A DNA stretch of 64,000 bases, taken from assembly GCA_008933995.1 (NCBI GenBank), contig WARS01000011.1:15564016-15628015 (forward strand), given 5' to 3'. Below are positions 1-17,254 of the stretch, piece after piece. This DNA comes from Datnioides undecimradiatus. Taxonomy: Eukaryota; Chordata; Actinopteri; Lobotiformes; Datnioididae. How positions within the stretch are numbered: the stretch's first letter is position 1; every line of letters starts with the position of its first letter. The notes below the pieces were generated by a model. That model worked only from the letters and a program-made list of their open reading frames with translations. It was not told the DNA's origin and did no database searches. The translations under genes and the position numbers were made by a program.

Positions 1-600
1 ATAAAGGAAGGAGATGACAGCTAACATACAGACCTCATTAACAAGCCCACGACAAAAGAATATAATTAAACAACCAGCTGCTGATGGAGAGAACCAGTCT
101 CATGGGCCCTTCAGCCTCCCATCTGACCTTTAACACACACCCACAGTTTTATTTTTCTCAGTGATCATCATCTGGTCAGATACAGTCTATATTTATCACT
201 ACTGGTTCTGAAAATGGATTTGACTTTTTAGGCTGCGATCCCTTTAAAAAAATGTAAACATTATAAACAAAAGCAATGTTGTTCTATTGGCACAAGACGC
301 AGTGTATACGGGCTTACCGTCCTTTGAACTATGTCCGATTTAAATTTACAAGATTTATCAAACATGCACTTTAAAATAAAATGTTTATCGTTTTGTTTAT
401 ATCATATCGAAACTCAGTGGCGTGAGAGCTTGGAACTGCCAAAAGATGAACGACTGAATGTACTTTCGGAGCCGTGCATCAGAGTCAATTTGATCTGTTT
501 GTCGTTGTATTGACGCAGTTGAATGCAATTTCTGTGAAGGTCGGTCTTGAATATTGAATCTAGAAACAGAGCAGGCAGGCAAAATACAGTGCGCAATGGC
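1..600. other. Unique non-coding DNA, no gene seen
   Basis: This opening stretch is AT-rich and has no frame longer than about 60 codons. The overlapping short frames at 331-596 on both strands show no recognisable domain or splice context. I see no repeat, RNA gene or promoter element here. Confidence 0.6.
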
Positions 601-1060
601 GCGCGTCTCTGCAGAGTCTGTTAATTACTAATTACTAATCAGATTGACTAATGCAATCGCGTCAGTCCTCAGTAAAATGCCTCACTAGTTCCTCCAAAAT
701 GTTGCCCCTTTTATTGGTCTGACATGGCGAATGACTGAGCTGCAGCCACACTCACGCGCACCGTGGCTCCATGCAAATGTAGCGACTAAAAATATAATTT
801 CAGAGCAGAAACAACAAGCCCAAATCACATATTCCTCTCAAAACACACAATTAACGGGAGAGTCTGCAAAGGCTGCAATTAAATATAAAAAGGAGGAAAA
901 TCAGCCAAGGGGAATTAGCATTTTCCATGACCATCTGGCATCGGCGCAGGCGACTGGGAACAAAGGCGAGCTGGATGGAGAGGAGAGGCGAGTGTGCCAT
1001 CGCATTGACCTGCAAATGAGGCTTTGTCACCGAGTTAAAGCTCCCTGACCCCCTTTACCC
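601..1060. promoter_or_regulatory. Candidate conserved non-coding element, homeodomain/octamer-like sites
   Basis: The block opens with a run of TAAT cores at 621-642 (two overlapping ATTACTA units) and carries a perfect octamer ATGCAAAT at 771-778. Further AATTAAAT-type sites lie near 850-890. Complexity is high and simple repeats are absent, unlike the flanks. A 105-codon open frame at 731-1048 (+) crosses it but resembles no protein. Dense TAAT and octamer motifs are typical of developmental enhancers in vertebrates. That this block is an enhancer is inference from composition only. Confidence 0.25.
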
Positions 1061-2312
1061 CCCTCCCCAAAAAAGACTTCTTTTTTTTTTAACCTATAGC
1101 GTGACGAATGGAGGCCTGAATTCAGGTCTGAGTGTGTTTTGTAGCTGCAGACGAAAAAAAAAAAATATTGAGAAAGTGTAAACAAACCAGTTCTGCAGGT
1201 CTGTTTGTTTGATTAATGGTCTTAAAATTGGATTTCAGTCAAATCAAAGTGAAGAAGAGCTATTGGCCTCAACTTGAAACGAGTCACAAAAGCAAAAATC
1301 CAAAAATCAGAACCGACTCGACACACACTGAATCCTTAATGTGTATCCGAATAGATTTTATCGCAATCTGGGCTTTAACCTCTTGACGCACGGGCCTTTT
1401 GCGCTGCTTTACGCTGCAAACGTCGTCAAAAAGCCTCTGTAAACTTTCTGTTTGGCGTTTTTCTTGCACGGGCTTCGCATTTATTTCACTATTAATTCTA
1501 TCTGATCGTTTCGATGATCATAAAAACATTTAATCTAGGCTCTACGGTTAATCCTTTTCCACCTTTTTTGCTTCAGTCTTTGCGCTCTGCGACCTGCAGA
1601 ACCCCCCCCCCCCTCCCCTCCACTGGTGAAGTGGGCAGACGGAGGCCCACGTGTTTGCATAAAGGTGATTGGCCTGTTGTTTACGGTTGCGTGTCAGGAA
1701 CGGGTCGTTGGTTGAGCGTCGTTCGTACGAGCTGCACCAAACGTTCTTACAGTAAAAACCTGCGCATCCTGTTACAGGAACAACAGGTGATGGCGACATA
1801 CCAGGAAATAAACCCTCGAAAAATAACAATTCAGTGCGCGTTTCAGTGTTTGAGTCCTAGATCAGACGAATATTTTGAATCAAAGCGCTCTCTCACCTGT
1901 GTCTTGTTAGGATATTATAGGATTATAGTGTTATAATGATGCTAATGTAATATATTTTAGGAGACAATAAGGCCAGAGTTTGAGATTGCGAATAAATACC
2001 CAGTGCAGTGAGATAATTAGAAAAACCAACCGTAAGGCCTTTCAGCCAAGATTATAGAAGTTTTGTAGGTCAAGTTATTTTTGGTTTTGGGTTCGTCTGG
2101 ATGCAGACGTGCCCCCCGTGTTTTTCTTTTTTTTCCCCCTTTCTCCTTTGCCTTTTTTTTCTCTTTACATCCACTCAGTATTCATGCCTGTGGATAACAA
2201 AGAGCACGGCTCAATCCACGCAGGAGGCGGTGTGACAGGGAACTCGTGGCAGCTTTTCAAAAATCTTCTTTCTGTCTCCTCCTTTTCTTTGCATCTCGAC
2301 TTTGGTCTCGGC
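1061..2312. other. Non-coding DNA with short homopolymer tracts
   Basis: Short A and T runs lie near 1080 and 1155, and a C12 run at 1602-1613. The overlapping frames at 1514-1936 (+) and 1548-1829 (-) read through that C run and look spurious. No gene or transposable element was recognised. Confidence 0.5.
1602..1613. repeat. C12 homopolymer
   Basis: Twelve consecutive C on the plus strand, followed by TCCCCTCC. It is one of several long C runs in the window. Its exact length is uncertain in any assembly. Confidence 0.9.
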
Positions 2313-2370
2313 TGGAAGGGGGGAGGAGGAGGAGGAGGAGGTGGAGGTGGAAGGGGAGGAGGGGGGGGGG
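2313..2370 (+). repeat. (GGA)n/G10 purine tract, possible G-quadruplex
   Basis: A tract of about 58 bases that is almost entirely purine on the plus strand: GGGGGG, several GGA units, GGT/GGA units, and a final run of ten G at 2361-2370. Many closely spaced G runs could support a G-quadruplex on this strand, and the purine bias could support triplex DNA. The frame at 2109-2486 translates it as poly-glycine and is not credible coding. Confidence 0.85.
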
Positions 2371-3590
2371 TTAATCAGCCTCCCACCTCAATCTCTAATT
2401 CACTTTGCTCTCCCCACGCATCAAGGGGATCGGATTTAATGCTGCCCAGAAGAAAAGCAGATCCTTTACAATGTTTCACAACGTGATGGAGCGAGCGGCT
2501 TAATGTCTAGTCTGGGCTGCTTCTGCAATGCAAACACACAACATACTGTCTTTGAAAGGTAGCGACGTTTAAACTTTTTTGGGATTTTCTGAGAAAGGTT
2601 GACAAAGTTGCCCCAAACTCCCAAACTTTTGGTTATTATAAATGCAGGAGAATTTAAATTTGATCAACAGTCAAATATTTGATATATAACACCCCATAAG
2701 AAAGATGTTTTTAAATAAAATTTTAGCTTGTTAAAATAAAAAAAATTTGTAACTTTTTTTTTTTTGGCCAAACAGTTTAATTTAATTCCAACATATGCAG
2801 CCAAAAGGCTTCAGTGAGCATTAGGTCTGTGGGCTTTGCACTGGTGGGTTTCACATGTGACTTGCAGCTTTGGAAAGAAAGTACACTGCAAAAAAAAAAA
2901 TAAAAAAAATAAAAAAAAATCATTTGGTCCAATGTTGATTGTAAAATTTTGTTGTTTAAAACATGTCACTTACTGTCCACACCATTTTTTTTGTTGTTGT
3001 TTGTGAGGAATGTCTTTAAATTATTCATAAGAATAATAAATAAATGTATCTAAATAATACTCAACTACATTAATTATGTGATTTATGCAGGAAGTAATTG
3101 AAATATTCCACAGCCTCTCCCGCTGTGGCCTAAAATTTGTCTACATATAAAATTAACAAAATGTATTCAGATGTTACACATCGACCAACTGACTTAATAC
3201 TGACATTTTTCTGTGCAACAAGCATCAAAGGTCGTCTCTTCACAACAGAATTGGCCAGTTTTCCCACCCGGAAAGGTGAAGGGGTCACGCTACTGATTTG
3301 ACAGCAATCGATACTGAATTCCATCATCCTCATCCGACCACGAAACATCCAAAAAGTTTCCACATATTAAAAATAAATAAATACATTTGTTATAATTTAC
3401 TCTGATTACAATGTGGGCCTTAAATTTAAAGCCTGAAAGAGTAAAACATGTGGATGGACAAAGCTGCAGCTTTTTATCTGATGCCAGGTCAAAATGTTGG
3501 CGTTAAAAAGATCAGGACTGTAATTTATAATTGTATTTTATATTATGCTGTACTTGTATCTGCTCTAAAATCCCCTAATTTTAAACTGTA
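2371..3590. other. AT-rich non-coding DNA
   Basis: Holds an A-rich low-complexity tract at 2884-2919 (CACTGC followed by A runs broken by single T) and a T/GTT run near 2986-3003. An open frame of 77 codons at 3130-3363 (-) has no recognisable motif. The CACTGCAAAAA start resembles a terminus shared by several fish DNA transposons, but no matching second end was found nearby. Confidence 0.45.
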
Positions 3591-3642
3591 ATATATATAT
3601 ATATATCTGTCTCTTATACACATCTTATATATATATATATAT
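3591..3642. repeat. (AT)n microsatellite interrupted by a foreign 19-mer
   Basis: An (AT)8 run at 3591-3606 and a (TA)n run at 3626-3642 flank the non-repeat insert at 3607-3625. The two halves look like one original AT array whose true length is hidden by the inserted sequence. Confidence 0.85.
3607..3625 (-). other. Tn5 mosaic end (Nextera adapter) left in the assembly
   Basis: The 19 bases CTGTCTCTTATACACATCT are exactly the complement of the hyperactive Tn5 transposase mosaic end used in tagmentation libraries. One copy is present, with no IS50 or second end, and it sits in an AT repeat where read-through and gap closing are error-prone. By base counting, an exact chance match to a given 19-mer on either strand of 64 kb is well under one in a million. 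Residual sequencing adapter is by far the likeliest origin. Confidence 0.93.
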
Positions 3643-5557
3643 CATATACACAACATACTGTTTCTATTAGCATTATTAGATTCTTTTAAAATAACTTGCG
3701 TGTCAGCCGGTGTTTTGCTGCACTATATGGAAGATTGTAACTTATTGATATTACAAAAGTAGGGGCATGTCCGCTGTGTTAAGCAGCAAAGTCAATGCTT
3801 CTGGTTATTCACCCAGCTCAGCATTAAACAAACAACCCATTTATTCATGCTATGAAGAGTCAAAGCAGCTAGTGTGTCCGCGTAGAAAGACACTGAGTCT
3901 TGTGCAATTGATCATATGGCTCATCCTCAGAGGCCTCAATAGATCACCATCAGCATATGGCGAGTGTCTGTTTTTATGAGTGCTGCATTCCCACAGACGC
4001 GGCGCACCCGTGCAGCCAGTGATGCAATGCGATTAGTGGATGCCTTCGCATCATAGAGTTCGCAGGGGATTTTGGTATTACTTATAAAGACGCCGTGCAA
4101 ACACTGAAACTTATTCTTGCACACAGGAAGCTACAGATTGTAACATTTAGATGTCTTTACAGTAGATTTTTGTATATAAGAAAAGGCGGGCCTGTTGGCA
4201 TGACAGGAAATGGACTTTCTAAGGCCGATGCTGAAGTTGACAGCAGATGATTTAATCCTGCAAGGCCGCTTATAGTCCTGATTTGCTGGTAGCATGTCAG
4301 CGTTCTAGAAATCGTGTTGAGACAAGCTGTCAGGCAACAGCTCACCCCTCAGAATCAAAACATAACCTACTGGGGCCCTTTGAGTCTCCCACTGCCACTG
4401 TACTGATCAAAACCTGCATAGCTTCACTCCAGGGTGATGGCTTTACAATGTGAGCCATATGCAGCTCTGCAGGAAGGGTCTCTTCATTAGTAGTGGACAG
4501 AGACACAGATAGTGCGATGACACTTGAGAAATGAGATCTAACTCCATCCCAGCGCCAGTCCTGACAGCCAGAGTCCTCCACCTCCATTCTTCTCCTCTCT
4601 CCCTTTGTCTGGATGCCTTTCAGTCCCTCTGAACCAAACCTGGTCCCCTTCCTCCCTTCTTGCATGGGGTTATGAGTCCTCTGTTGAGCGGCTGCTGTCT
4701 CTGTTTTATCTGTCCATCCATCCATCTCTGACGCCTCTCCTCCTCGCTCCTCTCCTCCCTGTCTCTTCCCATTGGCAGAGCAGTTTTCTTCTCCTTCAAT
4801 CATCTTGGCTCATAAAACTTGGGGAGGAGGGCTAGCAGGCTGTGTTTTCAGGGCTGGCTACACTGCTATGGGTGCACTGACTCGGACTAATGCTATTCAC
4901 GCCTCACATTTGCTCGCTAGGTCCTATGAAAAGGGATGGCCACGGCAGCCTTTATGGGACACACAACAAAGGACCATCTCATTCATCAGGCAGCGGAGCA
5001 CGAGGGCGATAGAGTTGGGGTTCATACTGCTAGCCGTCCGTACTTGATTTGCTAGCATCATGTTCGACACAGTTAACGTCTGTTTTGAAAAAGTTGGAAA
5101 AATCGTCTTTATTGCATTGATCTATTTCGGATTTTTTGTAGAACTTTAACATATTAAGTCAATATGATATTGTGTGAAATGTGTGTGTGTATGAGGTGTG
5201 TATGTGCGCGCAGTCAACGTCTGGTGGCAATATAGATATATAGCGGCTCGGGTCACCAAGCCACTGTGTCTTCACCTTTACTTGGCTGTTCCTCAACATA
5301 GGGCCAAAGCTTTTGAAGCCTGTTGGCAGCTCTAACCAATACCCAGAATACCCATGAGGCCTTGTCAGCCTGTCCTAATTTGTGGCTGTGGTCCTGGGGT
5401 TGAATTCAGCACCGCTGCTGGCTGCTTGACCTGCATGGCATATTCTGTTGGCGGATTAGCAACATCTTTTTATCTCCACATGAGGGCAACACCAATGATC
5501 GCAGCCTGCAATTACACAGCAAGACAGGCCTGCCCAGGGCTGCATGCATGCCTGCGT

Positions 5558-5558
<1 letters not shown>
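3643..5558. other. Non-coding DNA with a pyrimidine-biased stretch
   Basis: Mostly unique sequence. The part from about 4570 to 4800 is biased to C and T on the plus strand (many CTCC, TCCT and CCATCC words), which explains the glutamate- and arginine-rich minus-strand frame at 4342-4803. A small GT-rich patch lies at 5175-5210. No gene was recognised. Confidence 0.5.

Positions 5559-5598
<40 letters not shown>
5559..5598. repeat. (CA)20 microsatellite
   Basis: Twenty perfect CA units, preceded by a TGCATGCATGCC patch. Likely to be polymorphic in length. Frames on both strands here encode only HTHT or VCVC repeats. Confidence 0.97.
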
Positions 5599-5600
<2 letters not shown>

Positions 5601-6200
5601 AATGTTTATGGATGGATAGATGGAAGAATGAATAGTCTGCTGTGAGGAGAAAGAGAAGCAGCAGGTGATGTGGCCGGTGGAGCTGCTTTGAAGAAGACTT
5701 AAGAAAGAGAGTCTGGAGGCGAAAGGGAAACTGTCTCAGTGTGTGTTTTGGGGTTTTGTACTTTACAGTGGGTGTAAGCTACATTGTGTACATGGAAATC
5801 AATGTGTCGAGGGGCTGAGCTGCAGCTTATCTTCACAGAGATGGCACCATGCCCGATCACAGCATCAGAGCCAACAGATGCCTGCCAAAAGATGGAAACT
5901 GCCAAATGTCTCCAATTCAAATCCATCACAGGATGTTAGTCAGAAGGTGCGACCATGCAACTGGCCCGTAGCGTCTTTGATTTGAGTCAGAAGTGCTTTC
6001 AGCATTGCCGGCAAGTGACCGGTATTGTGTGTCTGGGAAGACTGAGCATTGCATTGTGTTTGACTCCTGATCATCTGCATTAAGCTTTTGGACCGCTAAT
6101 TTAGAAATCATATATTAAAAAAAGATTTAAATGGCCTAATGTGTTTGCATTTCATAAAAGCATTATCAGTTTGTACTAGTGACAATATATAGAGATAATA
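5599..6200. other. Unique non-coding DNA
   Basis: Short frames at 5699-5985 on both strands overlap each other and show no family signature. No element recognised. Confidence 0.5.
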
Positions 6201-6218
6201 TATAGATAAAATAGATAT

Positions 6219-6280
6219 TAAGTGTAAATTTCCCCCACTGTGGGATAAATGAAGTATTATCTAATCTAATCTAATCTAAG
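6219..6280 (+). mobile_element. 5'-truncated non-LTR retrotransposon 3' tail
   Basis: The segment reads AATTTCCCCCACTGTGGGATAA, then an imperfect polyadenylation-like ATGAAGTATT and a terminal (TCTAA)n array at about 6259-6279. Fish L2/Rex1-like LINE 3' ends commonly carry a CCCACTGTGGGA stem followed by AATAAAGnATT and a short tandem terminal repeat. Only the last 60 or so bases remain, so no reverse transcriptase is present. The orientation is plus. The family name is from memory of the pattern. Confidence 0.7.
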
Positions 6281-7807
6281 ACATTTTGACTGTCTAGTCT
6301 GAAACCCTCTGATTAGTGTATGTTATATAGCATCGATCTCTGGTTTATTACAGATTCAACTATTTACTACCCTTATCTTCCTACTAAGGAGGCTGCAGAA
6401 TTCACGTCAAAAGTTGATGCTTACTTTTGCAAATGACATGTGGGGCTGCAGGCCTGCAGTTTTCGGTGTTTGTTAAAGGCATTAAAATAATGGCAGGGTG
6501 CTATAACTAATAATAGTAGTTATAGCAGTAACTAGAAACTATAACCAATCGCGGCTGTGTCATTATTTCATAGAGACTTCAACAAAGAGATTCATGAAAA
6601 AATGGTTTAAGTAACGAACAGGTAGAAATAAATCATGGTTAAAAAAAAATAAAAAAAACCCTCACAGATGCAGTGCATTTTACTGTCTTGATAAAACAAA
6701 AGACCTGTGCCCAGATAACAACAGGCCGATATACACGCTTAGGTCAGCGCAGATCAGAATTGTGGCTGGGATCTTTCAGTGCACACAAAGCCGTGAACGA
6801 TGGGAATAGGGAAATTGGCAAACCTAACATGGTCCCCTGCCATCATCCCTCGCTCCCTCCCTCTGTTTCACAACAGATGCTATGTTCCATGAAGACACTG
6901 TCAGCTGCGCAAGAATGGGCCGAAATTTGTTGACAATAATGACGGTGGGGGACTGGAGGGCAACAAAAGGACAAAAAAGAAGAAAAACACACACACACAA
7001 AAAAAACGTTGTCAAAGTCAGCATCTGAGTTTACAATGACGACACAGCACCAGGGAGGGCGGCGTGCGAGTGTATGCACAGACCTCTCTCCAGGAATGGG
7101 ACCTATCGCTATGAAACACCCCTCCCAACTACTATTACTATAGTATACATACACACACCTTGTCAGCTGCAGGCCAGGCTGTCTGGGCCCAGATGGTGGT
7201 GAACTGCATAACTCACTTATCTGTCTCTGGCCTCCTAAAAGGAATGTAGAGCCTCTCAATTCCCCAGTGGGCGTCACCAAAAAGAGAGAGGAGAGGCCAT
7301 GCATCTGCTCCCCAGACACAAAATGGGCACTCCTGTCGTCCCTAAATGCATCCCCACTTTTTACCCCCAACTACGGAGAATCACCTTCATTTGATTTATT
7401 AAGTGAGTTATTCCCACCAGAGTAATGCTGTGGCATCGTTTTATGAGAGTGGGTAAAATGTGAGGTCACCAAAGTGTTTAACTTTTAAATCGATTAAAAC
7501 CAATGCACAAGAAGCAAGGTGTTGCATATTATGTCATCTTTTATAAAAATATATCTTTTAATAACAACTATTATGTAAATCAGTGGTTTGCTTTTTGCCC
7601 TTTGACCCCTGAAAATGCAACAATGTGTATTTGTGACCCCACAAGACTGATTACTCTTATCCAATTTAAGGAGGCAAACGTATCCAGGATCTCAAAAGAA
7701 ATAAGTATATATTTGAGAAAAATATTAATTAAGATGATATTTTTCGTCTAATAGATTATTTTCTTTATCCATTTCATCTTCGTGCAACTGCTCAGATTAA
7801 TCTTGTG
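6281..7807. other. Non-coding DNA
   Basis: Contains an A-rich tract at 6640-6658 and a short CA/A tract near 6985-7006. The minus-strand frame at 6843-7370 (175 codons) is the longest here, but it runs through low-complexity phenylalanine/cysteine-rich sequence and has no recognisable domain. A stretch near 7581-7660 faintly resembles a hAT end. Confidence 0.45.
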
Positions 7808-7820
7808 CCCCCCCCCCCCG
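7808..7820. repeat. C13 homopolymer
   Basis: Thirteen consecutive C followed by GGGTGTGTCCCGG. A difficult context for sequencing, so the length is uncertain. Confidence 0.9.
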
Positions 7821-8948
7821 GGTGTGTCCCGGCCTCCATGTTTCTACTCACTGGTGTAGATATTGCATAATCGTTGTGTCCAAAAACACAGTGCTCAGCT
7901 CTATAACAAAAAAGCTTGAAAACACTCACTTAATTTATGGTAAGCTGTGGCAATCAATAAAACATAATGGAAGCCAAGTTGATGTTAATTCGTGTTTATA
8001 TGTGTCTCTATACGCTCTTTTAAAAAAATTTTAACTCCTTGAGACTGAGAGAAAATTACTGTATTCTGCAAATACACACAGTATTAAATTGATCAAATAG
8101 CTTCAATAGCAGTTAAACTATTTGGCTGGAGGTTAAATTAGATGAGGCTTATTGTAGGATATTGATCACTCATGTTTAATTTGGCATCAAAAAACACAGT
8201 TTTTTTCATACAAACACTCCTTCTTATGCAATTCTGTACAGACTGTCTTTTTGCCCTACGATTAAGACAGTCCTGAAACAAACAATGCATGGACAATATA
8301 AACCAGGTGCCACTGGCTTCTGTCTATGCCACCATCTCTGTATTAGCCTTCACATCAAATGGCCCTTTCCAGAGCAGCTGTACTAACACCTGCCTTTCCA
8401 TACAAACATGCTGGAAATAAATGTAAAATGCTTTGGCGCAGGAGTTGCACACGAATGCATGACCTTTGAGCTTAGATTTAAATTATTTCATATTGACGTT
8501 TGGAGATTTTACAATAGCTGGTCGTTGCTCTGCAGATGGTTAAACATGTAAGCAGCGGACATGTAAATACTCAAAGTAAAAAGGAAAAGAGACATTAGAA
8601 AACACTTAAAAGAGGGTGGCAAAGGCACTGGCATGTTTTGCTTTCATCACACTGCCAACTCTTTACTCTCACTCTTTAAGCCCCCGATTAAACAGCACAC
8701 CCTTCACCACCTTGTTGCATATTGCTGCACTGTTTAAAGAGGTGAAATCTGGCGAGTTCTGCACCACCCACTGCGTCAAGTGTGGCTCAGGTGTGTGTGC
8801 GCGAGTGCGTGTTCACCACATGTGCCTGTTGTGCATGCTGGTGTGTGGTCCGTCCAGTTCGCGTAAGCATAATCAGATGGTTTTCTCGGTCTTGTACGTG
8901 CCTGCATGTGCACACACGGAAAACAATAAATGTAGCTTTTTCACAAGA
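7821..8948. other. Non-coding DNA
   Basis: AT-rich, with short frames only (for example 7822-8034 and 8616-9008 on the plus strand). The region 8780-8930 is enriched in TGTG/GCGTG words leading into the next microsatellite. No gene recognised. Confidence 0.5.
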
Positions 8949-8982
<34 letters not shown>

Positions 8983-9100
8983 TAAGCAAAGAGAGGGGAG
9001 AGAGATGACCAAAAAGAGAGGGATGGAAACGGGGTGTGAGTGTGTGAGAGAGAAAGAGAGGAAGTGTGAGGAAGAGAGGGGGAGAGAGAGAGATATAAGG
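8949..9100. repeat. Compound (TG)12-(GA)5 microsatellite and GA-rich tail
   Basis: A perfect TG run at 8949-8972 passes directly into GA units to 8982. Imperfect GAGAG-rich sequence continues to about 9100, leaving a long purine bias on the plus strand just upstream of the TATA-like box at 9216. Confidence 0.9.
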
Positions 9101-9215
9101 CAGTAGGGATTAAAATAATGTAATTCATGAATAATATAAAAGTTTTGTAGTGGGTCAAAACATTTTTAGGGGGGACAAGAAGCAAGAACAGAAGTGCTGA
9201 CTGGCATCCAGTTTG

Positions 9216-9225
9216 TATATAAAAG
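9216..9225 (+). promoter_or_regulatory. TATA box, candidate core promoter
   Basis: TATATAAAAG is a near-ideal TATA box, immediately followed by GGCAGAGG. A start site about 30 bases downstream would fall near 9246. It lies below a GA-rich tract and above a possible first exon with a strong splice donor at 9541. TATA-like strings also occur by chance in AT-rich DNA, so promoter function is inferred from the arrangement. Confidence 0.3.
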
Positions 9226-9245
9226 GGCAGAGGCAGCCGCAATTC

Positions 9246-9540
9246 ATGGTCGTTTAAGAATGAGCTGTGCACACATTCTGCTTATCAGAGCGGATCTGTC
9301 CTGGCTGTTGTCCCGAACTCGATCTCCGTGTTATCTTCACTCCTCCCATCAGATCACTGGAATCGTCAGTTAGACAGTGACAGTCCCTCCTCGTCCAAAC
9401 GTCCACGCTGTCCAGAGGGCACTTCTCAGTGAGCATGCAGAATATTTTACATCAGGCTAACTCAGTGATCACTGATGCTATGCCTGCTCCGCGACGAGTG
9501 CGTTTGACAGTATGGCTGCGCAACAAAAGCCCCGTTTAAG
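9246..9540 (+). other. Candidate first exon with short coding start
   Basis: Downstream of the TATA box, about 265 bases of high-complexity sequence lead to an ATG at 9512 in the context GACAGTATGG, with G at +4 but T at -1 and C at -3. It is followed by nine codons (MAAQQKPRL) and an AG/GTGAGT donor at 9540/9541. At least three upstream ATGs exist: a three-codon frame at 9246, a frame of about 37 codons near 9260, and one at 9435 ending in a stop at 9536-9538. No following exon was identified and the nine residues match nothing I know. This could be a real TATA-driven gene, a non-coding transcript, or chance. Confidence 0.2.
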
Positions 9541-10338
9541 GTGAGTTCAAATAATGCAACAGTATAGATATGAAATCAGGGATTGTTTTCCACAGCGACA
9601 GTCCACAGACCTGCAGGAGCACGTGAGCTTATCAGACGTGTTCGGACAATCGTGATGTGCAGTAAATAACAGGATGCTAAGCTTTTTAACTTAGGTGCAG
9701 AGCTTGTATAGGTTAGTTTTTTGCTGAATGCGGTATCTTGGTGTACACATATTGCTTCAGCTTGTCCTGTCTGCCCATTGGCCCCACGGCCTTCATGCAA
9801 AACGTTTACAAAAGCATGCACATCCAAGCACTAAATAAATCTACAAGTTGGACAATAACACATGCATGAGACGTTTAAGGTGCAAGTATATATAGTATAT
9901 ATATATGTACATATTTACTTTATACATGGCATAATTTTATCTTGGAGTAAAACCTGCCATAATATGGTTTCCCCCATCAATTGCAGACTTTGTCTCAGTC
10001 AGACAAAGGCATGTACTGATAACTGCAACAGTAGGATAACCTCAAAGTCCTCGTATTATAAAATGTTAAGCAAGCCGAATCTCTCAAAGCCTCACTGTTC
10101 TAACAGCAGAGTCATCAAAGTTTCCCGTGTTTGGAGAGCATCGCTCGTTTGATTAGATAAATGCTCGGTAAAGTCTCAGGTCACGACACAAGTCTCCAAC
10201 AAGTCAGGACAAGCGCTTCCATCATGTGGCCTCAGAGCACCACCAGCCCTGAGCAGCTTCCCGTCAGCCACCAACAAAACGTGTGGAACAAATGGCACCA
10301 GCCAAATGGAGGGGCAATAAGGCGAGGGGCCCTCTGTG

Positions 10339-10340
<2 letters not shown>
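9541..10340. other. Non-coding DNA
   Basis: A short TA-rich tract lies at 9885-9908. The frames at 9576-9827 (-) and 9862-10152 (+) have no recognisable motif. If the exon at 9246-9540 is real, this is the start of its intron. Confidence 0.45.

Positions 10341-10374
<34 letters not shown>
10341..10374. repeat. (GT)17 microsatellite
   Basis: Seventeen perfect GT units. Imperfect GT/GCGT-rich sequence continues to about 10590. The minus-strand frames here encode only HTHT repeats. Confidence 0.97.
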
Positions 10375-10377
<3 letters not shown>

Positions 10378-10541
10378 AGCGTGCATGTGTGGGAGCGTGT
10401 GTGCGTTGATGAAGTGTACCCAAGCAGACAGGACGTGGTGTGTGTGGATTTTGCAGAGTGAATGGTGATTGTGTATTTTCAAAAGAGAGGGGGTGTCTCC
10501 CTGTGTGAGAGTGAATGTCGGAGCCCTCTGTGAGTGAGGGC

Positions 10542-10590
10542 GTGTGTGTGTGTGTGTGTTTGTGTGTGCACGTGCGCACGCGTGTGTGTC
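10542..10590. repeat. Imperfect (GT)n tract
   Basis: (GT)9 at 10542-10559, then TTGTGTGTGCACGTGCGCACGC, an alternating purine-pyrimidine run with Z-DNA potential. Confidence 0.85.
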
Positions 10591-11530
10591 ACGACAGTCC
10601 AGAGTGGGTGAGAAAGAGCAGTCTGTCGGTTCAAGTATGCCCCCATGTGACCGTTGTGAGAAGTAAAAAGGTCAAGACGGGAGGATGACAGACTTCTGCT
10701 CGCATCCAGTTCATTCTGATTTCTTTATCTTTAACACCGATAAAATTCAGGGGTTTTGACATCACCTGGGAAAATACAGATGAGTGGTGACATAAAGAGC
10801 AATCCATGGTGAACTGTCTTAGGACCGGAGCAGCTTCGGCGCCCCACTGACACACCAGGTATCTGAAATGCTCCCGCAGAGATGACCTGTATTCTTACAC
10901 AGTGAATATTCCTAAACGTTCTCTCATTTGCTGTTTCGGTGATTGTGGTTGAGAGCGCTGAGTAACACTAAACTCTCACACCGGTGCTCGGCTGTGGTGA
11001 GATCTGGTGACTGTGAAGGTAAGAGCGTTTGATCCACAACATTTTCCGACTTGTCGAACCATTTGGGGAGCCATTCTGAGCTATCGCAGCCAGACCTCGC
11101 TCTTTAAGCTCAGAAGACATCACTCGCGCCGTAGGCCCAAAATCAAACTTGCAGTTTCTGCTCATCACCATAGTTGATGAATATTTGTTCCTGTGCAGCT
11201 TCAACCCTAACTTTGTTGATTTAAGTGCAACGACACCACAGCAACATCCTGCCGCACTCAGCTGCACAGATCTGCACTGGTGAAAGTCTCATCACGTATC
11301 TTCCCCTGAGAGAACTAATGGTTAACGTGTTCTCCTGCGGAGGATTTGGCTCTTTGGTTGCTGAGTGGCTTGTTGAGCGTCTCAGTAACAGATCCAATCC
11401 CTGCTCCCACTGCATCCAAGAGGATTTTCACTCCTTTGACTCAAACAAAGGAGGAGAGTGTTAAGATTTTAAAGCCCCCAAATAAGACACTGTCAGCCTC
11501 AAGAGACACTTGCAACACAGACGGGAGGGG
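10591..11530. other. Unique non-coding DNA
   Basis: No repeat was recognised. Overlapping frames at 10968-11464 on both strands have no consistent coding signal. The part around 11300-11420 has a loosely tRNA-SINE-like feel (GGTTAACGTGTTCTCC), but no A/B-box pair could be confirmed. Confidence 0.4.
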
Positions 11531-11610
11531 AGGCTAGCAAAGTAAGCAAACAAAGCCACTGGGACTGAGACATTGTGTATTTATCTTTTGTTATGAAAAC
11601 ACAAATCAGC

Positions 11611-11625
11611 TTTTTTTTTTTTTTT
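11611..11625. repeat. T15 homopolymer
   Basis: Fifteen consecutive T, followed by GTTTTGCTCTTTTTTT. Confidence 0.9.
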
Positions 11626-11962
11626 GTTTTGCTCTTTTTTTATCAGATGGCCGTAATGAGCTGCCTTCTGGGTAGTTTCGATAATTAAGGCCTTTATGAT
11701 CAGAGGGCGCTCTTATCGTCAACGGCAAACTTCAAACCGAACAACAACAAACAGTGTGAAGAGCCAGCTGAACCCCGGGAGCCGAGCTTCTTTTATCGCC
11801 TTCCCTTATGTCCACTCGCTGTGGCGGGGTTGTGATATGGTTTCAAGACGGACTGTCCGCTCTTATCACGCTATTATTCAAATCTTTTATCTGTTCTTCT
11901 ACAAACAAAACCTTCCGTCACGGAATCAAGCGTCCACTCGCTCATTGCTTCTGTGGATGGAG

Positions 11963-11977
11963 AAAAAAAAAAAAAAA
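11963..11977. repeat. A15 homopolymer
   Basis: Fifteen consecutive A following GGATGGAG. No target-site duplication or retrotransposed body was noticed beside it. Confidence 0.9.
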
Positions 11978-11992
11978 CTTGCCCGTTAAACT

Positions 11993-14056
11993 CTTTCATC
12001 TGCCCACAACGTCACATCTGGGCTGGGATCTGACATCAGTGCAGAGGCCTGTGTCAGATGTGGGTCCCAATTAGCTAGCGAGGCTGGTTCACCGCCTCCC
12101 ACCCCTCCTTTTTTTTTTTTCCCCCACATTTCGAGCGGAGACAGACAGAGGAGCCTACATGAAAAGGCCAGGGGCTGCTGGGGTAACAGGGCCGGAGTGT
12201 AAAAACAGTACTAATTGCGCTTGGCTGCTCTTTATGAAGTTGGAAGTCATGTCGCTCCGCGCCACGCCTACCTCCTCGGCGTTAAAGTTCCAAAGAGGCG
12301 AAAACTACACACTATAAACACCGCCCCCGCTGGATTTGTGGTCGCCGTGATCAAAGTCACCAATGGGGATGATAGGTCTGGTGCTGCATGTGTGTGTGTT
12401 TGTGTGTGTGAGAGAGAGGAGGTAATGTATAGCTTCTGCCGTTGTAATTCTTTGCGATTGTAACCGCTGTACAGCTTGACGAGCGAACATGACGCTAATC
12501 TGCTGCCTTCTGACGCACTCTGTGTGTTCCTTACGAACAACGTGTGCGCACGTACGCCCCGCTTCAGAAACATGCTGCTGAAAGCTCCCAATAGAAACCA
12601 TTCAATCCGTCCATACACAAGATGCATCTAAAACAAACCTGGGACGTGTCTGAACTATCTCAAACCAGAGTTCTTGAGGTGGAGAGCTCTGACGAAGGTT
12701 GGAGTCTTTGGAGATCTACTGCCAGGTTCACCTCACCTGTTGGACAGCTGTGTCTGGGGTGGGACCTGAAGAAACACAGGTCAGACACAGCATACTACAT
12801 TACATGTATCCAGGTCTAATCCAGATTTCTCCTTCAGCTAGATGCTAGCAAAATGAAATTTGAGATAAGATGCTTTACGGAGTACAAACAGGTCTACTGG
12901 TTGAAACTGTACACATCCGGTACAGGACCACCATGCGGTTGTGCTGGTCTTCACATAAGTGCAATAACTGTGTGCCCATACAACTGCAATGAGACTATAT
13001 GAAAACTGACCGCCTGTTATGTCCTGGCCTAGCGGAAACCATGACGCAACATGAGAATGAGACTCCCCTCTTCTCAACTCCCAAGACTAGAGGTTACAAA
13101 AATAATTTAGATTAATTCCTTAAAAACATCTTTCAAAGAAAGAACCATGCTGGCAGTCTGGGTGGAAGTGGAGAGAGGAGAGCCCACAGGAACTGGTGGA
13201 AGTCGGCCTTTAGGTGGGAATCTTAGAAGGCTGGAACCAATCAGGAACCAGGAACCATCCACACCGTTGATCCTCCACTCAGTCAATTAACCAGACTCAG
13301 GTGCAACCTATCAGACACTCACAGAAAGATCTACACACACACGTGATTAAAACATACATGCTTTCACAGAATGGACGACCCTGGGGTCGTAACACCACCG
13401 GAAGCTGTATTTGAAGGTCAGTGTGATTAAAACAACCTGTGCATGTCGTCCAGTCTCCAGCATCCAACATGCTCTATCTTCATCAGTTATTATTATAACC
13501 ATGATGAAAAAGCTCCTTAACCATTACAAATTAAGCATTTTGCCCGAATCATTATCTGAACTTAACACAGCCTCCTCCATAGTGTTTGATTATTGATTGG
13601 ATTTCTGAAAGTCGCATCCGATGAGCACTTTGGATGAAGGGTACTGATGCCGGTATCATCTTTGCATTGATAAACGTAATGTGATTGCTCACTGATCACG
13701 AATCTATGCGCTACAAAGAGCAAAAATGATCTGGGTCACCAAAGTGATCAGTGGGTCGTTGCATCCTGATGAATGAAGGATCCGCACCGCTCTCTGCTGC
13801 CGATCGCTGAGCAGCTGCACCGGGATAGTTTACGATGCAGCGGCTCGCTTATCACATGGGCGGTGCAGAGCAGCAGCAGTGGTGATTACCGCTGGTTGTG
13901 GCGCCTCTGAGGTCTATCTCCTGGTGCCCGTCTGCTCAGCTGGCAGTGCACTGCGAACAGATTATTCTGGACAATGTCCTCTCTCTGATTTTCTGAACTT
14001 TGCTCACAGTGTTATCTTCAACATCACTTTGGAGACACTGACTTAAAGTGCACAAT
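11993..14056. other. Non-coding DNA, some conserved-looking blocks
   Basis: Holds a T12 run at 12109-12120 and a short GT then GAGAG tract at 12391-12420. The part from about 12190 to 12380 is high-complexity with several CG dinucleotides and may be a conserved element. 13780-13960 is GC-richer with CAGCTG-type E-boxes. The segment 12838-13400 has a mobile-element-like texture, but no ends or coding remnants were identified. Confidence 0.4.
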
Positions 14057-14460
14057 GTCCGTTTTCCTCCTCCTTCTCCTCTCTTTCCTTCCTCTCATTG
14101 TTCCCTTTGTCCTCTTTTCCTCTTCCTGTTTCGTATCCTCCATTTTCCCGTCAGTTCCCTTTCCTATTTTCCCTTTCCCCCACTTTGTCTTACTCCTCTT
14201 ACTCCCTCCTCGTCCCCCTGTTGCTCCAACATGAATCATCACGCACAAGGACAGTCAACCCATTCTCGCTCTTCTCTGCTTTTCTCTCTTTTTGCCTGTG
14301 CTTTGTGTCTGTGTATTTATTGTTACTCTCACCTCTTCTTTCTCTTTGTCCCGCTCCGCCGTTCATTCCCCCCTCGTTCTCTATATCTAGTTGGGTTTTT
14401 TTTTGGTCAGTCTCACTCTTTCTCTCTCTGCTTCTCTCCTCTCCATTTATTATCGCCAGC
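14057..14460. repeat. Polypyrimidine-rich low-complexity region
   Basis: For about 400 bases the plus strand is dominated by C and T in words such as CTCCTTCTCC, TTTCCTTCC and CTTTCTCTC. This explains the serine/leucine/phenylalanine-rich plus frames and the lysine/glutamate/arginine-rich minus frames, none of which is plausible coding. Such tracts can form triplex DNA. Confidence 0.75.
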
Positions 14461-17254
14461 TGAGAAAAACAGAGTCTTTTGGGGCCAAGCCAGAGCAAAC
14501 ACTGATATCCAACCAGCCCCCCTCGCTGCTCTCTCCTTCCACTGGCAGCTGTCCATAACTAAACACACAATGTAACAGAACAGACACACACACACACATA
14601 CGCACACTCCCTGGAGTGTCCACTGTAGCTGTTTGCTTGGCTGACATGCTCTACTATGATTGCAGTGGTCTGTACGGTACACTACAGCCTGCAGCTGTGG
14701 ACCTTTCCAAAGCTTAGGCTGCAGCCAACCAGAAACAGCAACAAACTCTGGACAGGCAGAAAATAAACAGACACTTGTAGTCTTTTGCATGGCCTCTCTA
14801 GTCATTTTTCCCCTCGCATTTTTGTTTTTGTCTGCGTTTTCAGACCATATGCAGAGAAAAACTAGAAGGGTATGAGCAAAGAGTCGTCATCGGCACGACG
14901 CATCGGAGTTAAACCCTTGTTTTTTTAGGAAACGGGATGAGTTTATCACACTGACTCATCAAAAACAAGAGTAAAGTGCAGCAGTAGTAGCAGCATCATT
15001 AAGTTCCTTCTTTATAAACTCACACTCTCACTTCCCTCATCTGAGCTATTTTCATATTCTGGACACATTTTTGTGGAGTTTTGCTCCTTTTTCTTGCTGT
15101 TGCAGGGTCTTTTATTCAGCTCCTACTATTTACTTGCACCCCAACATATTTGCTGTGTTGTGTTATTGTTGTTGTTTTTTTTTTTTTTTTCAAATACAGT
15201 TTATTTTGATGTTAACCACACACTTTCTCTCATTTCTCACATTGGTCTCTCGTGGCTGCAAGCTCCCATCCATCATGAAGCAGCGCACTGAGTTCCTGCC
15301 AGGAGTTCTGCAGCCCTTGACTCTGACCTCACTGTGGAGATAGACGAGCAAACGGATCGTCCCCTCAGTGGAAGAAATAAAGAACAAAATCCATTTTATA
15401 GACAAAAATGATTAAATAAGAGGTTGTTCACAAATGCTTATGTTATAATAATGCGATGTATATGTTTATGTTTATGTTTACACCATGAATAAACCATTTT
15501 TCATCTGGCCTCTGACGGTCCCCTGGGTTTGATGTTCACATTACAGCGGACAGCTATCTTTGTATCAGAGCAAATAAAGTATGCCATTGCCAAAAGTGTG
15601 TTTTTCAAAGCCTGTTGCAACATGCTGCATTTGTAGAAAAAAGGAAGCAAACAGTGTTTTGCAAGGCTTTTGCAACAAATATGCTTACTGCAAGGGTGAC
15701 ACTCAGATGTATCGTACAATCCAGTTCCCAGGTCAAAATGAGTTCTTCACTAAACAGAAAAATAATGTGTAGACGCAGTTTTCCTTAAATTCCACACAGT
15801 TTGTTTGTTCTCAATACATAGTCTGTCTCAGTCTGTCATTGAATCCCACTTTAAGTTACTGTTTAATTCACACCCAACAGAAGCTGTGAGCAGTCAAGTT
15901 TCAGGTAACTCGTTTATTTCAAACCTGGACCCCTTTTCACTCCATCTCCTGAATTTTAAACGACTGCTTCCAGTCTTTGTGCCAAGCTAAAGCGAGACTT
16001 AACATGCCTTGGACCGCTCTACCACCTGCAAACACTTGACATTAATATAAATATATTCTTAAATCTACTCCAGTGTAAGGTTAGGGAGCAGACGAGGTTA
16101 TCTTCTTTCGCTTGAAGACATCTTTTTGTACTTTTCTCAGTTTTTCAGGTCATATGCACCGATTCAACCCCTGCACATGTGTCTCTGAGGTAAACCTTCA
16201 ATTGTTTTGACACACACACACACACACACACAGACACACATGCTGACAGCTCGTTAATGACAGGTAATAAAGGTTGTGTAAACACATCTGTTGGCGCTGA
16301 GTTACCAGACAGTAAAAGGCTGTAAAACTGCAGGCCATCAGGCCCCAGCACAGAGCGCCCATTATCAGTTCAGTGTCCTCGCTCGGAGCGCCGACCCTCA
16401 ATGACAATTCAGTTGCTCGTCACCACAGTTGTTTTTTTTGTTTGTTTGATTGTTTTGCCTCTGGTGCGGAACATCGTTTGAGGGATACCCTTGATTTTTA
16501 GGTGCTCGCCCACGTTTTGTGTTTTGTCATTGTGTTTTATCACTTCACAGTCAGGGTGTTCCATAAAAATTCAGTGACACCAAACAAAAATGATTTGGAA
16601 AAAAAATCAAAATCTGCAGAAAGCTGCTCCAAAATGCAACAGAATGAAGCTAATGGGTATAATTACCCCCCAACACAAGGTGTGCAAGGCAGTAGTGCGA
16701 GGCAGTAGCTTCATATATTTTTTAATGTATGACTGCAACGTAAAAAAAACACAGGTTATTTCTTCAGAAGCACAGGAAATTTCACATTTAATTGAATGTG
16801 AAAACAATTTTGAAGATTAAAATCAAGAGATGGTGTGATGCCCCACTGCCCCACACACACACCCACCCCACAAACACCAAGTGTCCTGTAGGAAACACAG
16901 TAATAAAGAGCCGGTGGGCAGGAGCATCTCCATACTTGATGAGCAGGTCGTCTGAGCGTTGCATGTGCATGTCTGCAGGGAATAGGTGCCACATGGCTGA
17001 TAACCAGATCTGCCTCGCGCTCTGAACAGATGGCGCTGGGCGTATCATTATTACTGCAGAACTGTTCACCAAACGAGATGAAACCAAAAGCAGTGATTAA
17101 GGACAATCAATAGCAGTGATTAAATGAGATTTGACACAAAGAACAGGACGCCAGGACACTGAGACAGAAGGGTTAAACACGTCCCAAAGCACCTATTTGG
17201 TTCCCCAAGAAGCGCAGTCGATTGATCTGAAAACGAGGCTGTTGGATAAGATCA
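14461..17254. other. Non-coding DNA with scattered simple repeats
   Basis: Contains a CA tract near 14582-14600, a T16 run at 15175-15190, three tandem TTTATG-like units near 15460-15480, and (CA)11 at 16211-16232 followed by GACACAC. Frames are short and mutually overlapping. No gene recognised. Confidence 0.5.
16211..16232. repeat. (CA)11 microsatellite
   Basis: Perfect CA run, followed by an interrupting G and further CA units. Confidence 0.93.

Follow-up and report, generated by a model that had tools for sequence, protein, structure and literature searches.

The Tn5 mosaic end and its surroundings

The window, the whole stretch of 64,000 nucleotides of the Datnioides undecimradiatus assembly analysed here (G000:C334:15564016-15628015), contains the exact 19-base Tn5 mosaic end CTGTCTCTTATACACATCT at positions 3607-3625 of the + strand, with 0 mismatches. 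It is the sole match on both strands of the window when up to 3 mismatches are allowed, and 100 shuffles yielded 0. After masking of the 19-mer, Markov models of orders 0-6 were trained on the window; they predict 0.012-0.057 copies per 1 Gb, both strands counted. The 19-mer separates two halves of an AT repeat that are read directly, (AT)n at 3591-3606 and (TA)n at 3626-3642. An exact mosaic end set between two AT-repeat halves had been described at this place in the initial annotation, and both points hold, the copy being single in the window. The locus is organised as follows:

2960-3590: left flank, single-copy; 1 assembly match, itself, at 100%
3591-3606: AT repeat, left half (alternating AT over 16 nt, read directly); presumed left edge of a closed gap
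3607-3625, + strand: Tn5 mosaic end, exact match to bases 1-19 of the stLFR forward adapter; almost certainly an artefact
3626-3627, + strand: TA, which may belong to the adapter tail (its opening two bases, TAGGAAGAC...) or already to the repeat; comparison with the tails of other copies does not separate the two
3626-3642: AT repeat, right half (alternating TA over 17 nt); presumed right edge of the closed gap
3643-4300: right flank, single-copy; 1 assembly match, itself, at 100%

Since both flanks (2960-3590 and 3643-4300) are single-copy, there is no sign of a foreign locus pasted beside this mosaic end. The adapter tail that follows other copies is cut here to at most 2 bases, the TA that is also repeat sequence. 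The edges at 3591-3642 overlap by 15 nt, which is weak evidence within an AT tract.

The window holds 0 Ns, and no piece longer than 11 bases of either stLFR adapter was detected elsewhere in it. Its longest stop-to-stop frame has 212 codons and lies in a repeat-rich stretch, and the lists of open reading frames give short frames only. Rfam gave 0 matches on the window and Pfam 0 families in two of the six frames of positions 1-14700.

Immediately downstream lies DNA (TATACACA) that agrees with the 19-mer at 13/19 positions and is paired with it by tandem-repeat tools. A 30-base tandem pairing was considered as the origin of the 19-mer and rejected: much of its identity is that of the AT repeat, and agreement at 13/19 is also reached by 2.4% of random 100-mers of the window. 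A 19-base stretch (CAAACACACAACATACTGT) is present at 2531-2549 and, with 89% identity, at 3643-3661, where the second copy lies directly right of the AT tract; this likeness is probably due to chance.

Copies across the assembly and identity of the adapter

The assembly that contains the window comprises 581,297,614 bases in 497 contigs. A search for the 19-mer on both strands, which the initial annotation had proposed, gave the 1 copy in the window and 84 exact copies in the whole assembly (31 forward, 53 reverse), while the same letters reversed gave 0. The flanks of all 84 copies were taken as 81 stretches, three of which contain two copies each. A further place, G000:C480:10025144-10025174, carries the stLFR tail behind a mosaic end of 15 nt that follows an ATA repeat. 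As the mosaic end is cut to 15 bases there, the count of 84 is a floor.

Most copies are followed by a common tail, TAGGAAGACAAGCACTGACGACATGA, exact over at least 4 bases in 65/84 and over at least 10 in 55/84. The full tail is TAGGAAGACAAGCACTGACGACATGATCACCAAGGATCGCCATAGTCCATGCTA, cut at varying lengths and exact over all 54 nt in 12 of the 84 copies. Five further copies carry an edited tail (L271, L283, L300, L308 and L322), and in 14/84, the window copy included, no tail is recognisable. Exact tail lengths cluster at 10-16 bases, found in 42/84 copies, 8 of which are the sites with a shared downstream segment described below. A second cluster lies at an exact tail length of 0, with 12/84 copies, three of them with edited tails; the lengths are thus not evenly spread.

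The stLFR forward adapter is given in a passage of the MetaTrass paper in the form supplied to SOAPfilter (PMC10989976). The mosaic end plus the first 26 bases of the tail agree letter for letter with the adapter printed in that passage. With at most 1 mismatch, the first 31 bases of the tail occur at 15 places in the assembly (control 0). In fourteen cases the match adjoins the end of one of the 84 copies, with a one-base overlap in a single case; the fifteenth is the C480 place. The reverse stLFR adapter quoted in the same passage (PMC10989976), searched as a 24-mer with at most 1 mismatch, was found at 2 places in the assembly (control 0):

G000:C337:12730525-12730548: 24-mer match to the reverse stLFR adapter
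C468:18684586-18684609: 24-mer match to the reverse stLFR adapter

One of the two places has all 45 nt of the reverse adapter followed by Ns, and the other has 24 nt joined to other DNA. No pieces of the reverse adapter were seen in the loci examined around the 19-mer copies. The artefact stems mainly from the forward adapter.

The library is, as far as the adapter letters tell, an stLFR library (BGI/MGI) and not an Illumina Nextera one. The 19 bases of the mosaic end are the same in the stLFR forward adapter, and other copies in the assembly continue beyond them as printed, CTGTCTCTTATACACATCTTAGGAAGACAAGCACTGACGACATGA, while the copy at 3607 has lost the tail after at most 2 bases. As the window copy has no tail beyond TA, the kit is assigned through the other copies. 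The Illumina Nextera i5 and i7 adapters have the mosaic end in common with it, but their tails stand behind none of the 84 copies. The attribution to Nextera in the initial annotation is accordingly not sustained: Nextera tails follow 0/84 copies and the stLFR tail 65/84, plus the 5 edited ones. In the Nextera mate-pair junction, as described in part of the NextClip paper (PMC3928519), the 19-mer is one half of a 38-nt double junction, which is absent here.

Position of the copies relative to repeats and gaps

The surroundings of the copies are one-sided. A simple repeat lies to the left of the 19-mer in 62/84 copies, compared with 4.9% of random 24-mers of the window, and to the right of the tail in 20 of the 74 copies that could be scored. 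Ns occur within 400 bases downstream in 17/84 copies and upstream in 0/84; the remaining 67/84 have no N within 400 nt downstream. Among the 17 copies near Ns, the N run is at least 186 bases long in 12 and a single N in 5. At L281, 28 bases separate the copy from the contig end. The pattern is that expected of a program which starts at the left edge of a gap, crosses the repeat and enters reads that continue into adapter. Tandem pairs of adapters are found at L299, L330 and L337, an arrangement that fits the same walk from a gap edge. At L324 the 32 nt preceding the adapter recur immediately behind a single N; the edges of that gap apparently overlapped and left no sequence to be filled in.

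Overlap between the two edges was measured in 68 of the 81 stretches, 13 being omitted for a short right edge. It reaches at least 15 bases in 12/68 stretches, against a mean of 3.8 and a maximum of 8 with shuffled partners (30 shuffles).

A foreign segment pasted at eight sites

At L279, L285, L307, L311, L319, L324, L328 and L344 the adapter is followed by one identical sequence. A 227-base piece of it has 9 matches in the assembly, which are the eight adapter sites and a locus on C478:

G000:C478:6180940-6181166: source locus of the shared segment; no 19-mer within the 3,227 bases examined

The eight sites are identical to C478 over 339-865 bases; L319, L324, L328 and L344 were measured in stretches of 819 bases, and L279, L285, L307 and L311 also in longer ones (L352-L355). 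The shared segment stops at a single N in six of them (L307, L319, L324, L328, L344, and L279 as L352). In the other two, L285 (as L353) and L311 (as L354), it breaks off abruptly at a join. Because eight adapter copies run into a C478 segment that is itself free of adapter, the adapter led the closing program into an unrelated locus, which was pasted eight times. L302 and L321 (G000:C325 and C389) also have the same sequence as each other after a partial tail, then Ns, and are probably a second case of foreign paste-in.

The mosaic end in public assemblies

In parts of two papers the mosaic end is described as a hyperactive engineered replacement for the natural Tn5 ends, its 19-base strand being the oligonucleotide CTGTCTCTTATACACATCT (PMC4248319, PMC3046479). 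Mate-pair junctions and the harm done by unclipped reads are treated in a section of a third (PMC3928519).

The 19-mer was found in at least 120 stretches (at least 127 matches) of the collection viral_contigs and in at least 119 stretches (at least 133 matches) of genome_contigs. Among the 260 matches listed, 246 are no more than 100 nt away from one end of the examined locus, all pointing outwards and none inwards, and 14 lie further in. Seven of the 14 stand 1-4 bases before an N run (L130, L162, L183, L199, L215, L228 and L239) and six are followed by 14 or 15 bases of i5 or i7 tail (L005, L120, L198, L232 and two in L160). The remaining one, at L192 (CAJXPN010000583.1, 3073-3091), is internal to an N-free contig of a prokaryote MAG, where the mosaic end has just three tail-like bases and joins straight onto other sequence. 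The 19-mer thus behaves as an adapter in public prokaryote and viral assemblies.

Control searches of viral_contigs gave 1 hit with the reversed letters and 0 with a dinucleotide shuffle. The natural Tn5 outside end gave 0 matches in this collection, as did the mosaic end extended by TATATATATA. The inside end is present in 15 stretches (L248-L262, IMG/VR), several of them with the match 72-98 bases from the locus end. Three stretches from IMG/VR (L242, L244 and L245) have 38-base mate-pair junctions well inside viral contigs, and the stretches examined are N-free.

A likeness to the window is offered by scaffolds of NRRL actinomycetes (L130, L162, L183 and L199), which likewise have a single mosaic end within a scaffold, adjoining Ns. 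There the gap is still open and the tail reads CTG or CTGA, whereas the gap in the window would have been closed over a repeat. CTG or CTGA after the mosaic end presumably represents the tail of an older Nextera kit.

Origin of the 19-mer in the window

The 19-mer at 3607-3625 is almost certainly an stLFR adapter artefact, a false join made in software by gap closing, and not DNA of the animal. Adapter read-through retained during gap closing had been suspected from the window sequence, and the suspicion is borne out by the 84 copies against a control of 0, their common tail and the one-sided Ns. The copies, tails and downstream Ns across the assembly likewise support the view that positions 3591-3642 do not represent the organism.

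The adapter's identity, its presence throughout the assembly, the one-sided placing of repeats and Ns around it and the copied foreign locus are all observed; they would have arisen by the following course. The stLFR method uses Tn5 loaded with the mosaic end to cut long DNA on barcoded beads. Where inserts were short, reads would have passed through the AT tract into the adapter, that is, into the mosaic end and next TAGGAAGACAAGCAC... The draft assembly would have had a gap within the AT tract at 3591-3642. The closer may have recruited such reads through the common repeat and continued from the left edge into adapter sequence; the right edge would then have been attached either to the last base of the mosaic end or, past the TA, two bases further on. 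As the tail starts with TA and the right edge reads TATATA, the join can be placed no closer than these two bases. The true locus is probably a single AT tract.

A single N left at closures is a habit of SOAP GapCloser. This habit, together with a published pipeline for an stLFR fish genome, is the reason for our guess that SOAP GapCloser was the closing program (PMC11240236). The pipeline, used for cobia, is set out in part of that paper as stLFR, Supernova and Gapcloser v1.12, and is of the kind that we infer here (PMC11240236).

Read-through of an Illumina Nextera paired-end library would leave the same 19 bases, as the mosaic end is common to the Nextera and stLFR kits, and among the matches listed from public prokaryote and viral assemblies 216/260 do go on with the beginning of a Nextera i5 or i7 tail. 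This origin is nevertheless very improbable here, where the first six bases of the i5 and i7 tails follow 0/84 copies and the stLFR tail follows 65/84 plus 5 edited. A mate-pair junction of the Nextera type, in which one mosaic end abuts another and of which one half was kept, has a precedent in the 38-nt junctions that persist in public contigs (7 stretches from 6 contigs of viral_contigs, 3 of the 7 well inside the examined stretch). However, the assembly has no match to the 38-mer at up to 1 mismatch and its second half follows 0/84 copies, which makes such a junction exceedingly improbable. The first six bases of mate-pair or old-Nextera tails were found after 0/84 copies.

The 19-mer could also be native DNA, a chance product of the decay of an AT/CA microsatellite: TATACACA comes naturally where TA meets CA, and the downstream DNA agrees at 13/19 positions. 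Against this stand 84 copies in 0.58 Gb, with a control of 0, where chance would give the small fraction of a copy per Gb noted above. The 13 other copies without a tail lie mostly behind simple repeats or base runs, other kinds among them (AG, TC, ATT, G or C), so that a decaying AT/CA repeat does not account for them, and a native origin is extremely improbable. A real Tn5/IS50 insertion, or another mobile element ending in the 19-mer, would find some likeness in the segment shared downstream of eight copies. That segment, however, derives from a single other locus that lacks the 19-mer; it starts partway along the adapter tail and has varying ends (a single N or an abrupt join). The natural inside and outside ends have 0 exact matches in the assembly, and the probability of such an element is practically negligible. 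The initial annotation argued from the lack of a second end and of IS50 genes. As the mosaic end is engineered and replaces the natural outside and inside ends (passages of PMC4248319 and PMC3046479), this lack is not the best argument against an insertion.

Consequences for users of the assembly

It is an evenly balanced question whether gap closing bridged by adapters is a systematic fault of stLFR short-read assemblies. Foreign paste-in is visible at 8/84 adapter sites of this one assembly. If it is, any repeat that ends in read-through would be a door to the adapter, and the adapter a hub into unrelated loci. Hundreds of foreign bases would then enter many gaps and create false segmental duplications, with about 32 adapter bases as their trace. 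Were the fault general, other stLFR assemblies would show the 19-mer followed by TAGGAAGACAAG, with duplicated segments behind it.

Users of the present assembly would meet adapter sequence at no fewer than 84 places, and the eight paste-ins would read as recent, 100%-identical duplications. Vector and adapter screens require internal matches longer than 19 bases, and copies as short as that of the window may slip past them. The biology of the locus is unaffected, except that masking of positions 3591-3642 is advisable.
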